Shown here piece after piece: positions 25,310 to 31,250 of a stretch of 34,082 nucleotides of DNA; the stretch's first letter is position 1, and every line of letters starts with the position of its first letter. The notes beneath the pieces were generated by a model. It was not told where the DNA came from. It searched no databases and was given only the letters and a program-made list of their open reading frames with translations. The DNA is taken from positions 1 to 34,082 of the forward strand of contig NZ_SPQG01000022.1 in NCBI RefSeq assembly GCF_004944975.1, given 5' to 3'. The translations under genes and the position numbers were made by a program. The stretch is from Halorhabdus amylolytica. GTDB lineage: Archaea; Halobacteriota; Halobacteria; Halobacteriales; Haloarculaceae.

Positions 25310-26776
25310 CTACTCTTTGCGGCTGTACTCCCAGTCCTCAACGCTGATCTGAGCGGCGGCCGCGTCGATCTTGGCGGCCTCGTCTGGCCCTGACTTGTGG
25401 CCCCCGACTGGTCCGAAGAAGTACCCGAACGCATCCTCGACGAGCAATTCGCCGTAGGGTGTCAGGCTCCAGCCGGTGTTATCTCCCTCGAGGATTGCGC
25501 GCTCGAACTCACGGCCCGCGAGGTCAGTGCAGAGCTTCGTGACGGCGGCCTTGTCGTCGACATCCCCGATCTCCTTGGCGATGTCGGCTGATCGTACCTT
25601 ACCGTCCTGCTCAACCACCTGCTCAAGGACCTCGGTGGCTTCGACGTTTTTCCAGTGGGCGTCTTCGATGGCTCCGGTGTCCTCCTTCACGAGAACGTTC
25701 AGTTTGCCCTTCGCGACGAGGTAATTCTCCGAGACGATTGTCAGAACGTCGTCCTCGTCGACGACTTCGGCAGGGTCGAACTCCTCCAGCGGACCGTACT
25801 GGCGCTGGAAGAGATTCCACTGGCCGCTGGTACCCGGCTCGTTGTGGATGAGCGGGTCGTCGTCAATGTCGTCGGGTTCGTCGACGAGGTGATCGATCAG
25901 ATGGTCCAGGACCTCGTCGGCGAAGATCCCGTCGTCGCTGGTCTCGTCATGGTACTCGTCGAGGTTCTCGTTCAGGCTTTCGGCCCGGTCCTCGTCGCGG
26001 TACTTGAGCTTCCCACCGTGCTTCGGCTGGATCGGGAGCCCGGCATCGTAGAGGACGTCACGAATGAGGTCCGTCATCTCGAAGCGCATCTGCATCCACT
26101 GGTCGGACCGCTCGCGATCCTCTTCATGCTGCTGGAGCCACTCGTCGTCGATATCCGCCTCACGTTCGAGGCGGTTCTGCTGGTACTCGATGAACTCCTG
26201 CTTCAGCTCCCGTCGGCCGTCGCCCATCACGGCGAACGCGGGTTCGTCGCCGCGGAAGAAGCCGTCCGTCAGCCCCCACGCGATCTCCTTCGCCATCTGC
26301 TCCTCGTCGATGCCCTCGGGGAACAGCATCAGCCGCCGGAGCGCGACACCGAACTGGAAGGCGAGCTGTTCGGGTGCCGACGACGGCCGGGCGCGCCCCG
26401 GCTGTGGGCTGACGCGGCACGCCTCGAGGATGTCGCTGTGGTCGGGGTCCTCGGCGATGACCTCCTTATCGTTGTGGGTCGATGGGACGCGGCGATCGGC
26501 CTTCGGTCGGTAGCCGGTGTCATCGAACCCGATGAAGTCGATCCAGGACTCGCCCCAGTGGTCGTCGTCGAGGTAGCTATTGTGCGCAAGTAGCTGGATG
26601 TCTGAGAGGAGGTGGTCGACGCGTTGCGGGAGAGCGTCGATCTTCTTCTGGACGCGCTTTTCCATCTCACCCTCTCGGTAACTGCCTGGATTCCCGGTCG
26701 CGACGAACTGACGCTCTCGGGTAGTGAGGGGATAAGACGGCCGGCCGTGCTTGGCTGTCGAATCGTCATCACTCAT
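25310..26776 (-). CDS. Repressor-like protein, 488 aa, divergent from the tail genes
   Basis: The start at 26776 (MSDDDSTAKHGRPSYP) lies 26 bp from the symmetric promoter palindrome at leaderless distance; the open frame extends further upstream but only antisense to the tail tube gene. The N-terminal block LTTRERQFVATG...GEMEKRVQKKIDALPQRVDHLLSDIQLL resembles the start of haloarchaeal HTH regulators such as the 283-aa protein here. The middle is acidic and helical. The C-terminus (residues of about 400-470, WKNVEATEVLEQVVEQDGKVRSADIAKEIGDVDDKAAVTKLCTDLAGREFERAILEGDNTGWSLTPYG) is a winged helix. Position opposite the late genes suggests control of the tail operon. Function inferred. Confidence 0.68.
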   Translation of the reverse strand: MSDDDSTAKHGRPSYPLTTRERQFVATGNPGSYREGEMEKRVQKKIDALPQRVDHLLSDIQLLAHNSYLDDDHWGESWIDFIGFDDTGYRPKADRRVPSTHNDKEVIAEDPDHSDILEACRVSPQPGRARPSSAPEQLAFQFGVALRRLMLFPEGIDEEQMAKEIAWGLTDGFFRGDEPAFAVMGDGRRELKQEFIEYQQNRLEREADIDDEWLQQHEEDRERSDQWMQMRFEMTDLIRDVLYDAGLPIQPKHGGKLKYRDEDRAESLNENLDEYHDETSDDGIFADEVLDHLIDHLVDEPDDIDDDPLIHNEPGTSGQWNLFQRQYGPLEEFDPAEVVDEDDVLTIVSENYLVAKGKLNVLVKEDTGAIEDAHWKNVEATEVLEQVVEQDGKVRSADIAKEIGDVDDKAAVTKLCTDLAGREFERAILEGDNTGWSLTPYGELLVEDAFGYFFGPVGGHKSGPDEAAKIDAAAAQISVEDWEYSRKE

Positions 26777-26785
26777 ATTGCGTGT

Positions 26786-26833
26786 GAAGGTAGTTTCACA
26801 GGATACATAAATGTATCTTGGGAAGCTACCTTC
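26786..26833. promoter_or_regulatory. 48-bp imperfect palindrome forming a bidirectional promoter
   Basis: The two 24-bp halves match at 20 positions: GAAGGTAG at one end, CTACCTTC at the other, and GATACAT-AA-ATGTATC in the middle. The centre (ACATAAATGT) can be a TATA box for both directions: it lies about 33 bp from the minus-strand ATG (26776) and about 31 bp from the plus-strand ATG (26841), so both transcripts would be leaderless. Confidence 0.75.
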
Positions 26834-27068: not shown

Positions 27069-27143
27069 ATGAGACAGAACACGCTTTCCGAGCACGACGA
27101 AACGACCGACACCGCCGCCACTGAGGTGATGTACCGATGGTGA
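27069..27143 (+). CDS. Possible 24-aa leader peptide overlapping the tail tube start
   Basis: ATG 27069 reads MRQNTLSEHDETTDTAATEV and stops at TGA 27141-27143, just past the tail tube ATG (27137). Such an overlap could couple translation of the tail tube gene. Too short to judge on composition. Confidence 0.3.
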   Translation: MRQNTLSEHDETTDTAATEVMYRW

Positions 27144-28108
27144 GCGGTGTGAACACGGAGGTCGCGTACCTCCACGAGCCCGTCGACGACTACACCGGCA
27201 CGCCGACTGACAGCGACTACAAGATCCCCGGCATTGGGACGACCGTCGAGGAACTCGCTATCGACAACGCGCTCCAGCGAATCCGCGTCCCGAACGCCGC
27301 CCAGGCCGCCGAGACAGTCGCCGGGAACTTCGAGGGCGCGTTCAACGTGAACTTCACCCTCGGTAATCCCTGGTGGTTGAATCATGTATTCGGCGGCCCA
27401 CCTGAAGCTGGCGGCGAGTCCGACGCGCCGTATACCTACACCTGGGACTTCGAGACTGACCGCGTCCAGTCCTCGCGCTGGTACATCGGCGCGAACTTCT
27501 ACAACAACACCGTCGAGCGGGTGCTGAAGGGCGTTGTTTTCGGCGGTCTGCAGGTTCAGTGTCAGGTCGGCGAGACCGTCCAGGTCGACCTCACCGGCTT
27601 CTATGGTGACGAGGAACGCAACTCCTCGATCACGCCGGGGTCGACGCCCGACGAGCAGGCCAATCCGCTGGTCTTCCACGGTGCCACGCTTGAAGTCCCG
27701 AGTTCTTCGGAGCTGAAGAAGCTCCAAGACTTCACGGTGGACATCCAGACCGGCGCCCGGCCGGTTCAGGGTATGCAGCGCAAGCCCCATGACGCCGTGA
27801 TGGGTGCTGTCGAGACGGAGCTCTCCGTGAATGAGGTCCTCACCGAGACCGATCAGCTGGCGCTCGCCTACGGCAACTCGAACGCCCCGGTCAACGGCCG
27901 GATGGACGGCGCCGCTGACGGGACAGTCCGCTTCGACGGGCCGCCCTCAGGTAACACCGCGATAGAGTTCCAGATGACCGGCGTGAAGCCGAACGACTAC
28001 AGCTGGAACAACGTCGGGAACGCCGAGGAAAACCTCAGCGAGGCGATTACCTACTACGTGAATAAGGTGAGCGCGCTCGCCGAGAGCTCGCAGGACACCG
28101 CCCGCTGA
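27137..28108 (+). CDS. Major tail tube-like protein
   Basis: 323 aa. Composition and pattern fit tailed-virus tube proteins: strand-rich, with a long N-terminal loop region (YKIPGIGTTVEELAIDN), WYIGANFYNNTVERVLKGVVFGGLQVQCQVGETVQVDLTGFYGDE, where viral tube proteins have their main sheet, and a late segment (LQDFTVDIQTGARPVQGMQRKPHDAVMGAVETELSVNEVL) typical of the tube-type fold. The next genes are a frameshifted chaperone and a tape measure protein, the invariant order in tailed viruses. Name is based on both pattern and order. Confidence 0.75.
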   Translation: MVSGVNTEVAYLHEPVDDYTGTPTDSDYKIPGIGTTVEELAIDNALQRIRVPNAAQAAETVAGNFEGAFNVNFTLGNPWWLNHVFGGPPEAGGESDAPYTYTWDFETDRVQSSRWYIGANFYNNTVERVLKGVVFGGLQVQCQVGETVQVDLTGFYGDEERNSSITPGSTPDEQANPLVFHGATLEVPSSSELKKLQDFTVDIQTGARPVQGMQRKPHDAVMGAVETELSVNEVLTETDQLALAYGNSNAPVNGRMDGAADGTVRFDGPPSGNTAIEFQMTGVKPNDYSWNNVGNAEENLSEAITYYVNKVSALAESSQDTAR

Positions 28109-28213: not shown

Positions 28214-28255
28214 CAGTAGCTTCTCTCCCGCCCACTCAGGGCCGGAGGTACCACT

Positions 28256-28801
28256 ATGCCACGAACCACGAAAACGTTCGACCTGAAGGAAGAGGAACAG
28301 CGCATCGACCGCGAGATGAACGAGGCCGCCGACGAAGCCGCCGAAGCCGAGGACGGGAGCCGTACCCACGAGGAGGCGATGGCCCGCGGAAAGCTCCTCG
28401 AGCGAGAGCTCGCTGGCGTCCAGTGGGCGCTCTACCCCGACGAGGAAGAGGACCGCGACCCCTACGAGGAGGTGACGCTGGGGGCGCTGAACGCGCGCGA
28501 GTACGGCGAGATCGGCGACCGGGTGAAGACCGCAAAGGAGCAGTCCGCTGGGACAGCGTCCGGGCTGACGTCGATGGAGGGCGTCCAGCAGATCTTCTTC
28601 GTCGCCGGCGGGCTCGTCGACGCACCGTTTATCCCAGAGAACGCGAGTTTCGAGGAGAAGTCGCAGGCCGTCGGCGACCTCTCGCCGCAGTTCGTCACCT
28701 ACCTCCAGCAGCAGGTCGACGACCTCAGCACACCCAACGTCCAGGGAAACGGGTTCGCGCAGCGGGTCGCGGAGAGACAGTCGGCCGCGACGTCCGAGTA
28801 G
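28256..28801 (+). CDS. Tail assembly chaperone, short form (G-like)
   Basis: 181 aa, preceded by GGAGGTACCACT. Acidic and helical, with a disordered N-terminus (DLKEEEQRIDREMNEAADEAAEAEDGS) and a folded core (PYEEVTLGALNAREYGEIGDRVKTAKEQ...GVQQIFFVAGGLVDAPFIPENASFEEKSQAVGDLSPQFVTYLQQQVDDLS). It sits between the tail tube and tape measure genes, where tailed viruses encode the chaperone that coats the tape measure protein. Near its 3' end lies a slippery heptamer giving access to the -1 frame, so a longer fused form is also expected. Confidence 0.8.
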   Translation: MPRTTKTFDLKEEEQRIDREMNEAADEAAEAEDGSRTHEEAMARGKLLERELAGVQWALYPDEEEDRDPYEEVTLGALNAREYGEIGDRVKTAKEQSAGTASGLTSMEGVQQIFFVAGGLVDAPFIPENASFEEKSQAVGDLSPQFVTYLQQQVDDLSTPNVQGNGFAQRVAERQSAATSE

Positions 28802-28944
28802 CCTACGGGAAGGCGATGCTGATGTGGTGCGGCCACTCTCCCGACGAGATCGAGGAGTACGACTGGGCCGATGTCCAGCTGTTCCTCGAGGCGCTACCCG
28901 CAATCTGGTCGAACATGAACCTCATGGAGGCACCCGATGACTGA
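28256..28944 (+). CDS. Tail assembly chaperone, -1 frameshift extended form (GT-like)
   Basis: Ribosomes slipping one base back at GGGAAAC (28744-28750) leave the short frame after residue 165 (VQGN) and add 64 residues: RVRAAGRG...VAYGKAMLMWCGHSPDEIEEYDWADVQLFLEALPAIWSNMNLMEAPDD, ending at TGA 28942-28944, for 229 aa in all. The added part is the T-like domain: a helix with the MWCGHSPDEIEEYDW motif as in other viral tail chaperones. It has a possible internal ATG (28816) but no ribosome binding site in front, which favours frameshifting. It overlaps the tape measure start by 8 bp. Confidence 0.75.
28744..28750 (+). promoter_or_regulatory. -1 ribosomal frameshift heptamer GGGAAAC
   Basis: In the zero frame it reads caG GGA AAC, the X_XXY_YYZ phase needed for tandem slippage (GGA to GGG, AAC to AAA). 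It lies 48 bp before the zero-frame stop (28799-28801). A 7-bp stem, GTCGCGG (28766-28772) with CCGCGAC (28785-28791), follows 15 nt downstream. Confidence 0.75.
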
Positions 28945-30511
28945 CTTCTCCACCACCGCCAGTCTGTACGTACAGCTCGACGACAGCAGTGTCGGCGACG
29001 CCCGGGACCAGCTCGAAGACGAGCTGACGGCTGACCCCATCCAGGTTGAAGTCGAACCTGTCGAGCGCCCCGGCTCCGCGATGGAGGGCATCGGCGGGGG
29101 CGGTAGTGGTCGTGACAGCGGCGGCTTCAGCGACCTGTCCGAGCGGATGGAGTCTCAGGTGGGTGCGCTTGACGAGATCACCGACGCCTGGGATGAGAAT
29201 ATCGACCTGAACGAGCGCCGTAACGAGCTACTTGAGGAGATACAAGAGATCCAGGAGGATATCAAGCGAGCGAACTCCAGCCGCGCTCGGGGCGGTGGAC
29301 TCGGCAGCCTCCTTGGCGGTCCTGGAGGCATTGCTATCACCATCGGGCTGCTCGGGGCATCGAAGCTCATCAACGTGCTACGGAACTTCAGCTGGCCGGA
29401 ACTGCCTGACATCCCACCGATTGAGCCGCCGAAGATCCCACCGCTTGACGTTCCCGATAGCGTTCCGGTCGACATCTCGGATATCCCGGCACTCGATGTG
29501 CCGAACATCCCGCCGCTGGATATTCCGGACCTGCCGACGTTCACCTGGCCGGACCTTCCTGAATTCACGTGGCCGGATCTCCCCGGGTGGAGTTGGCCCG
29601 ATCTCCCCGAGTTCACCTGGCCCGATTTGCCTGAGTGGACGTGGCCGGACCTCCCCGAATTCACGTGGCCGGATCTCCCCGGGTGGAGTTGGCCCGATAT
29701 CCCGAAGCCCGACTGGCTCCCTTTCGGAGCGCCTGACGACGGGGACGGCGGAACCGGTAGTGGATCGCTAGTCCCGGATTGGATCCCTGGTCTCGACGAC
29801 GTCGGCGACGCCGGCGGGACTGCGTGGGACACGATCGCCGGCGTTGGCGAGGGTACGATCGACACCGTGACTGATGCCGGCGGGACTGCGTGGGACACGA
29901 TCACCGGCGCTGGTGGGAGTGCTGCGGATTGGGCCGGTGAGAACTCGGGGAACCTCCTCGCCGTTGGCTCTCTGCTCGGTGGCGGCGCCCTCGCCCTCGC
30001 TGACGGACCGTCCCCGATCGGAGACGCTCTCGGTGCGAATGTCGCCGCTGCAGGCGGTGGCAGTGCTTTACTTGGTGGTCTTCTTGGCGGCGCAGCGAGT
30101 GGGAATGACAGCGTCGGCGACTTCACGCAGGATCTCTTCGGCGACAACTGGGGAAGTTCCGCGACGGGCGGTCGGCACGGCTCACGCGGACAGGGTGTCG
30201 GTCCTATTGAGGGCTTCTTCGCCCGCCTGTACGAACCTCTCGCGCCGAACAGCGTTGGTGGCGGCAGAGGTACGAGTGTGGGCACCGCGTCGATGAGCGC
30301 CCACCGGAAGTACTGGGAGCGTCGCGACCGCAATCGACAGAGCCGGAATTCGGGGACTAAACCCCCGCAGATCAACTACAGCCCGACGTACGAAATCGAT
30401 ACACGAGAGCTCAAGCGTAAGGTCGACAGCGACATCAAAGAGGTAGAAAGACGGATTGGCGACCTTGAGAGCACGTTGGACAGAATTGAGAGAGCGGGGC
30501 GTGGAATCTGA
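28937..30511 (+). CDS. Tail tape measure-like protein with Trp-Pro repeats
   Basis: 524 aa, the longest gene of the tail block, starting 8 bp inside the chaperone's extended frame as is usual for tape measure genes. The N-terminal ~40 residues look like a small folded domain; a coiled coil follows (about 75-115, DENIDLNERRNELLEEIQEIQEDIKRA), then a hydrophobic segment (GGIAITIGLLGASKLINVL). Next is a Pro-rich region with seven 8-residue FTWPDLPE-type repeats (202-257), Gly/Ala-rich hydrophobic stretches and a final coiled coil (LKRKVDSDIKEVERRIGDLESTLDRI). At about 0.15 nm per residue the protein would set a tail near 80 nm. No lysozyme or peptidase motif seen. Confidence 0.75.
   Translation: MTDFSTTASLYVQLDDSSVGDARDQLEDELTADPIQVEVEPVERPGSAMEGIGGGGSGRDSGGFSDLSERMESQVGALDEITDAWDENIDLNERRNELLEEIQEIQEDIKRANSSRARGGGLGSLLGGPGGIAITIGLLGASKLINVLRNFSWPELPDIPPIEPPKIPPLDVPDSVPVDISDIPALDVPNIPPLDIPDLPTFTWPDLPEFTWPDLPGWSWPDLPEFTWPDLPEWTWPDLPEFTWPDLPGWSWPDIPKPDWLPFGAPDDGDGGTGSGSLVPDWIPGLDDVGDAGGTAWDTIAGVGEGTIDTVTDAGGTAWDTITGAGGSAADWAGENSGNLLAVGSLLGGGALALADGPSPIGDALGANVAAAGGGSALLGGLLGGAASGNDSVGDFTQDLFGDNWGSSATGGRHGSRGQGVGPIEGFFARLYEPLAPNSVGGGRGTSVGTASMSAHRKYWERRDRNRQSRNSGTKPPQINYSPTYEIDTRELKRKVDSDIKEVERRIGDLESTLDRIERAGRGI
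29540..29707 (+). repeat. Seven tandem 24-bp repeats coding for [FW][TS]WPD[LI]P[EGK]
   Basis: Seven 8-residue units (for example FTWPDLPE, WSWPDLPG) in the tape measure gene, preceded by a related Pro-rich part without Trp (IPPLDIPDLP). The 24-bp units are near-identical in DNA, which points to recent duplication and possible length change by slippage. Confidence 0.85.
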
Positions 30512-30551
30512 CGCCTCTATTCTTTTAATCCTGCGCCCGACACGTCAGTAT

Positions 30552-31250
30552 ATGGACCGACGCGCCTTCCTCACCAGCGCTGCCAGCGTCGCGATGGCCG
30601 CCAGTGCCGGCTGCCTCGGGACACAGGCCAGTGGCGAGGACAAGACGCCCACGGAGGACCGTGCCGTCGATATCGTCGACGTTCAACTCATCCACGAGGG
30701 CGAGGGCGCAGATACCGAGGTTCGCGCGGAGATCACGGCGGAGGCTGTGGCCGACCAGACGCTCGGTGAAGTCGTCGCGACGGCTACCTTCGTCGACGGC
30801 GAAACACTGCTTGGGAGTTGGGTCGCGGTGGTGAACGGGATGGAACCCGGCCAGCGCTGGCTAGTGTCAATCCGTAGCGGCGGCACCTCAGGTGAGGACG
30901 CGGCGGCCGTCGACGATGTTCAGGTGGTCGTTGAGGAGCGATCGCCAGCCTCGACGCTCGGGAGCGACCGGATCGAGATCGTCGACGAGGACCTCATCGC
31001 CGAGGACGGCGAGGCGCGGGTCGAGGGCGTCGCGAGGAACGCCGGAGAGGAGCGACTGGAGTACGCTACGGTCGTCGTGACGTTCGCCAGCGAGGATGGC
31101 GTCCTGCTCGGGCAGGCGCTCACGGACACGACGCGGGACATCGACGTCGGACAGCAGTTCGAGTTCTCCGTTCGGTACAGCGCACCCGTTCGGGCGGCCG
31201 ATGCGGTCGCCGACTACCAGCTGACCACCGAGGCCGATATTGAGAAGTAG
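30552..31250 (+). CDS. Twin-arginine exported lipoprotein
   Basis: 232 aa. The N-terminus is MDRRAFLTSAASVAMAASAGCLG: a twin-arginine motif (RRAFL), a hydrophobic core and a lipobox with Cys at residue 21, the usual signal of haloarchaeal surface lipoproteins. The mature part has two similar beta domains, VDIVDVQLIHEGEGADTEVRAEITAEA...GEVVATATFVDGETLLGS and IEIVDEDLIAEDGEARVEGVARNAGEERLEYATVVVTFASEDGVLLG, the FxLYD-type fold. A TTTTAATC about 27 bp before the ATG fits a leaderless promoter. In a virus-like block it could be a superinfection-exclusion protein; in a plasmid, just surface cargo. Confidence 0.8.
   Translation: MDRRAFLTSAASVAMAASAGCLGTQASGEDKTPTEDRAVDIVDVQLIHEGEGADTEVRAEITAEAVADQTLGEVVATATFVDGETLLGSWVAVVNGMEPGQRWLVSIRSGGTSGEDAAAVDDVQVVVEERSPASTLGSDRIEIVDEDLIAEDGEARVEGVARNAGEERLEYATVVVTFASEDGVLLGQALTDTTRDIDVGQQFEFSVRYSAPVRAADAVADYQLTTEADIEK

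Follow-up and report, generated by a model that had tools for sequence, protein, structure and literature searches.

A conserved slippery heptamer predicts −1 frameshifting in a haloarchaeal tail assembly chaperone gene

Judged by sequence comparison, −1 frameshifting that gives a G/GT tail assembly chaperone pair from one gene is in all likelihood the best explanation for an arrangement of overlapping frames in the window, by which we mean the whole 34,082-nt stretch of Halorhabdus amylolytica DNA that was analysed. The short chaperone, G, is encoded in the zero frame at 28256–28801 (+), has 181 aa, matches phrog_19457 (E = 1.6e-12) and ends at a TAG read at 28799–28801. Its gene is preceded by a Shine-Dalgarno (SD) sequence, GGAGGT, at 28244–28249 (+), a 6-nt match to the anti-SD complement. 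The heptamer G_GGA_AAC lies at 28744–28750 (+), in the G-frame codon context ...GTC CAG GGA AAC CGG...; as first described, it is exactly in X_XXY_YYZ phase and precedes the stop of the 181-aa ORF by 48 nt. The −1 frame was said to stay open for 64 codons beyond the heptamer and to contain MWCGHSPDEIEEYDW, and it does so: this T extension occupies 28750–28944 (+) and closes at a TGA at 28942–28944. The predicted G–T fusion is 229 aa long, with VQGN-RVR as the predicted junction.

In the mechanism we propose, most ribosomes would read G through to the TAG and make the 181-aa protein, and a minority would shift by −1 at G_GGA_AAC as the tRNAs in the P and A sites re-pair with GGG and AAA. From there, these ribosomes would resume at CGG (28750) and produce the 229-aa fusion. 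The analogy of lambda gpG/gpGT suggests that the role of G would be to coat the tape measure protein and that of T to bring in tail tube subunits, so setting the ratio in tail assembly. We infer the slippage itself, its efficiency and these roles of G and T.

The gene lies between a tail tube gene and a tape-measure-like gene, the place where a G/GT chaperone pair is classically found. The upstream gene, at 27137–28108 (+), encodes a 323-aa tail tube protein (PF18906 Phage_tube_2, E = 6e-15; phrog_18409, E = 2.5e-64), and tail tube homologs are found upstream of the chaperone in 41/43 homologous loci. Immediately downstream, at 28937–30511 (+), is the gene for a 524-aa tape-measure-like protein, whose first 104 residues align with the gene in the tape measure position of a complete provirus from another haloarchaeon (tblastn, 35% over 104 aa, E = 1e-6); weak matches to PHROG tape measure families were also obtained. 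The gene shares its first 8 nt with the end of T, stop codon included, and has an SD sequence of its own, GGAGG, at 28926–28930. The tape-measure-like protein contains a tryptophan/proline-rich tandem repeat (TWPDLPEF/GWSWPDLP; window 29540–29720), which is unusual for a tape measure protein. Directly after its gene, at 30549–31250, is a lipoprotein-like ORF with a twin-arginine plus lipobox-like start, and a homolog of this ORF is present at the same place in a second contig, G413:C66.

Homologous loci were collected with a profile of nine homologs, which was searched against 391 sampled genomes of the class and gave matches in 36. The window G used alone as a query against viral contigs, genome contigs and phages returned no homolog; the family profile, run over whole genomes, succeeded. 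No homologs outside the class came from a phylum-wide sample of 295 genomes, which yielded solely genomes already found. The conservation set comprised 43 loci, being the window and 42 further haloarchaeal places that encode a PHROG 19457 protein. An in-phase heptamer near the 3′ end of G was GGGAAAC in 38 of these, GGGAAAT in two, and AAAAAAC, AAAAAAT and AAATTTG in one each. After reduction for kinship by clustering at 60% identity, 29 lineages remained, with GGGAAAC in 26 and GGGAAAT, AAAAAAC and AAATTTG in one each. The second slip codon is almost always Asn, AAC or AAT, across the family.

Background rates were taken from 400 kb of the host genome (97,647 host codons), in which the rate per codon is 3.3e-4 for in-phase X_XXY_YYZ heptamers (Y = A/T) and 3.1e-5 for in-phase GGGAAAC, the latter representing three occurrences. 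At these rates a single heptamer near one gene end is only mildly surprising. The original prediction had suggested an alignment of homologous loci as a check, and the heptamer was indeed kept, with GGGAAAC/T or AAAAAAC/T in phase in 42/43; in the comparison of sequences this recurrence is the decisive point. Only 3/201 Gly-Asn pairs of the host are spelled G_GGA_AAC, and therefore conservation of the amino acids fails to explain the heptamer. Three further observations were made in passing. The divergent homolog L051 (G382:C46) carries A_AAT_TTG right at the G stop, with a 13-nt overlap; L030 (G126:C1) has tandem slip sites, GGGAAAGGGAAAC, both in phase; and in the host genome sample (L059–L078) X_XXY_YYZ was counted 32 times in codon phase vs 67 and 42 times in the other phases, as if avoided.

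A homologous T domain is present in the −1 frame of all 43 loci, and the products align over their whole length. Conservation of T begins soon after the heptamer with LRRxARGE, which in most loci falls inside the overlap with G, and continues with GHxPxxxxExxWRDxE. For pairs of intermediate similarity, dN was lower than dS in the T frame in 31/31 cases, and the differences at the three −1-frame codon positions of the T pairs numbered 432, 366 and 725. These codon comparisons show purifying selection on the T frame. The point of entry into T is delimited by stop codons in relatives. In four loci a −1-frame stop directly abuts the heptamer, so that the −1 frame opens exactly there; in L005 the zero-frame stop follows 3 nt after the heptamer; and in L051 the whole stretch in which a shift is permitted is 13 nt long and holds the slippery heptamer. 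Therefore, the family-wide frame change must occur at the heptamer.

This arrangement bears on whether T could instead be a separate protein of ∼40 aa, arising from an internal start or from re-initiation beyond the G stop, with the heptamer a coincidence. Two in-frame ATGs, at 28816 and 28822 (28816–28824, +), lie shortly after the G stop of the window and just before the conserved T core, and some ATG before the T core is present in 21/43 homologs. These two ATGs are the sole possible internal starts in the window and have a weak SD context, as against the GGAGGT before G and the GGAGG before the tape measure gene. The conserved LRRxARGE of T is upstream of both, within the G overlap, and under separate initiation the conservation of the heptamer would not be expected. 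Relatives whose T had its own start and ribosome binding site were to count against the original prediction; however, no ATG, GTG or TTG at all lies in the required stretch between heptamer and T core in 15/43 loci, and an SD match of at least 5 nt for T was found in just 3/43. The startless loci and the rarity of convincing ribosome binding sites speak against a T with an initiation of its own in the family and, since the window has its two ATGs, this no-own-start argument rests on the relatives. Overall, we consider a separately initiated T very unlikely.

We give almost no credence to the −1 frame being a functionless overlap, or to an indel from sequencing or assembly having joined two real pieces. 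High-GC genomes give long open frames by chance, and the −1 frame of the window is already open for 678 nt upstream of the heptamer, but the arrangement is found again and again, in 43 loci and two isolated viruses at 19–46% identity, T shows conservation in the −1 frame and has dN below dS, and in several relatives −1 stops sit directly upstream of the heptamer. Such recurrence across loci already refutes this explanation for the family. A change of frame through slippage of RNA polymerase at the run, rather than of the ribosome, can yield the same fusion, and two relatives do have six consecutive A residues; however, the heptamer keeps its codon phase, a property to which transcription is blind, and GGG AAA is a short mixed run of a kind that is a poor substrate for polymerase slippage. 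Thus, polymerase slippage is extremely improbable here. For ribosomal frameshifting, the original proposal that haloarchaeal ribosomes use the −1 signal here is strongly supported at the level of sequence by the gene order, the conserved heptamer and T frame, the dN/dS comparison and the startless T of relatives.

A stem 15 nt downstream of the heptamer had also been reported. A 7-bp stem-loop (28766–28791, +; −14.4 kcal/mol) does exist there, and its stretch, which was picked by hand after the fact, folds better than 98% of its dinucleotide shuffles. The stem is not conserved, and over the full 60 nt beyond the heptamer the window folds no better than shuffles (z = +0.3), with a mean z of −0.49 over the 43 loci. 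In 40-nt windows downstream the mean z lay between −0.35 and +0.22 and no position stood out. No consistent downstream structure was found in the relatives among simple stems, the class of structure that the folding covered (pseudoknots lie outside the model). The stem was rejected as a conserved stimulator and is probably incidental. As a candidate upstream stimulator, SD-like 4-nt matches were frequent around the site, at −16 to −5 in 11/29 cases, by a noisy measure. There being no conserved downstream structure, slippage may depend mainly on the heptamer. Almost exclusive use of Asn as the second slip codon and the lack of a conserved stimulator structure together suggest which features archaeal ribosomes may require for slippage.

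Predicted structures were confident and gave few matches. The AlphaFold2 model of G (pLDDT 93) has long N-terminal helices and that of T (pLDDT 89.6) is helical. No convincing match to the G model was found in the PDB, and its two best matches in BFVD are unnamed viral proteins; the fourth BFVD match is annotated as a tail assembly chaperone of an Arthrobacter phage and is weak (E = 0.03, TM about 0.3). The T model gave no fold match. In PHROGs the G family, phrog_19457, is annotated as of unknown function (39/39 members). The analysis amends existing annotation: phrog_19457 very probably corresponds to the chaperone G, and the viruses BJ1 and CGphi46 each carry a T that their records lack.

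Terminase large subunit, portal and capsid genes were not recognised on the window contig. The Terminase_6N and Phage_capsid models had no match in the host genome, though they matched in control genomes; a TerL query from one provirus was also silent in the host genome, which is weak evidence, as the same query missed other proviral genomes. Two contigs of 32 and 38 kb, G247:C22 (L083, L085) and G413:C66 (L086, L087), resemble that of the window, and all three have in common a replication protein gene (phrog_17376), the minus-strand ORF at window 25313–26827, the tape measure gene, and G/T with GGGAAAC. On none of the three was a head gene recognised, and the tail tube gene is absent from two, G247:C22 and G413:C66. 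The minus-strand ORF, which runs opposite to the tail genes, encodes a 505-aa protein (GSYREG...VQKKID); this protein was found in 5/391 genomes of the class, near G/T in three and without G/T in G109 and G150. The simplest reading is that these three contigs of 32–38 kb are degraded proviruses. A less likely reading, which we regard as a long shot, is that they are satellite-like elements whose own tail-length module serves to divert or block the tail assembly of a helper virus; if true, it would account for an intact frameshift signal without a complete virus. Given a contig without recognised head genes, the use of the G/T product in a complete virus may be doubtful.

What was a single predicted site is now a signal conserved throughout a family (29 lineages of <60% identity) in one group of archaeal viruses, and the natural constructs it offers make −1 frameshifting by archaeal ribosomes directly testable. 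That experimental proof in archaea is sparse, as originally stated, agrees with a 2021 review, which lists one experimentally demonstrated archaeal −1 frameshift, in the alpha-fucosidase of Saccharolobus (De Lise 2021, PMC8211752). The novelty suggested for the site is small, the phenomenon having been reported in haloarchaeal viruses since 2013 and the same heptamer in HCTV-1 (PMC5009743; PMC8211752). A passage of an earlier review credits −1 frameshifting in HVTV-1 and HCTV-1, -2 and -5 to Sencilo 2013 and Pietila 2013 and gives the slip sites G_GGA_AAC for HCTV-1, A_AAA_AAC for HCTV-2 and G_GGA_AAG for HCTV-5 (Atkins 2016, PMC5009743); the halovirus cases are repeated in a passage of the later one (De Lise 2021, PMC8211752).

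We verified the heptamers in the sequences of HCTV-1, HCTV-16 and HCTV-2. HCTV-1 (genes 122/123) and HCTV-16 resemble the window in having an in-phase GGGAAAC near the end of G, with a −1 shift, between the tail tube and tape measure genes, and in both the chaperone is annotated as a joined CDS, for HCTV-16 with the wording 'putative programmed translational -1 frameshift'. The match of the HCTV-1 G to the family profile is weak (20.8 bits). HCTV-1 and HCTV-16 differ from the window in belonging to another virus order (Thumleimavirales), in the additional genes that separate T from the tape measure gene, and in a T without detectable similarity to that of the window family. Closer relatives are ORF61 of Halorubrum virus BJ1 and HALG_00051 of CGphi46, which fall within the G family of the window (148 bits against the family profile) and have the same GGGAAAC, a homologous T in the −1 frame and a tail tube gene just upstream. 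T is unannotated in the records of both, after GGGAAAC (BJ1, L055 4891–5500; CGphi46, L056 2059–2660). These are isolated viruses, whereas the window contig is without recognised head genes. Halorubrum virus Hardycor1 (HrrHc1_110/115) has a published slip site, G_GGA_AAT, which, like the heptamer of the window, is followed by the tape measure gene (PMC7911831).

Lambda gpG/gpGT shares with the window the gene position, a −1 shift near the end of G, a short T extension and the tape measure gene next in order (PMC5009743). Lambda G is a binding partner of the tape measure protein and lambda T of the tail tube protein, and neither is present in virions (PMC5009743). No sequence similarity or clear structural similarity of lambda gpG/gpGT to the G and T of the window was found. 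The lambda slip site is G_GGA_AAG, so that its second codon is Lys, in contrast to the AAC or AAT (Asn) almost always present in the window family. The mechanism in haloarchaeal viruses is already published and is not new; added here are the unannotated T genes of BJ1 and CGphi46, the near-exclusive AAC/AAT second slip codon and the presence of the module on elements without recognised head genes, and the comparative basis for the frameshift is better than in the literature found.
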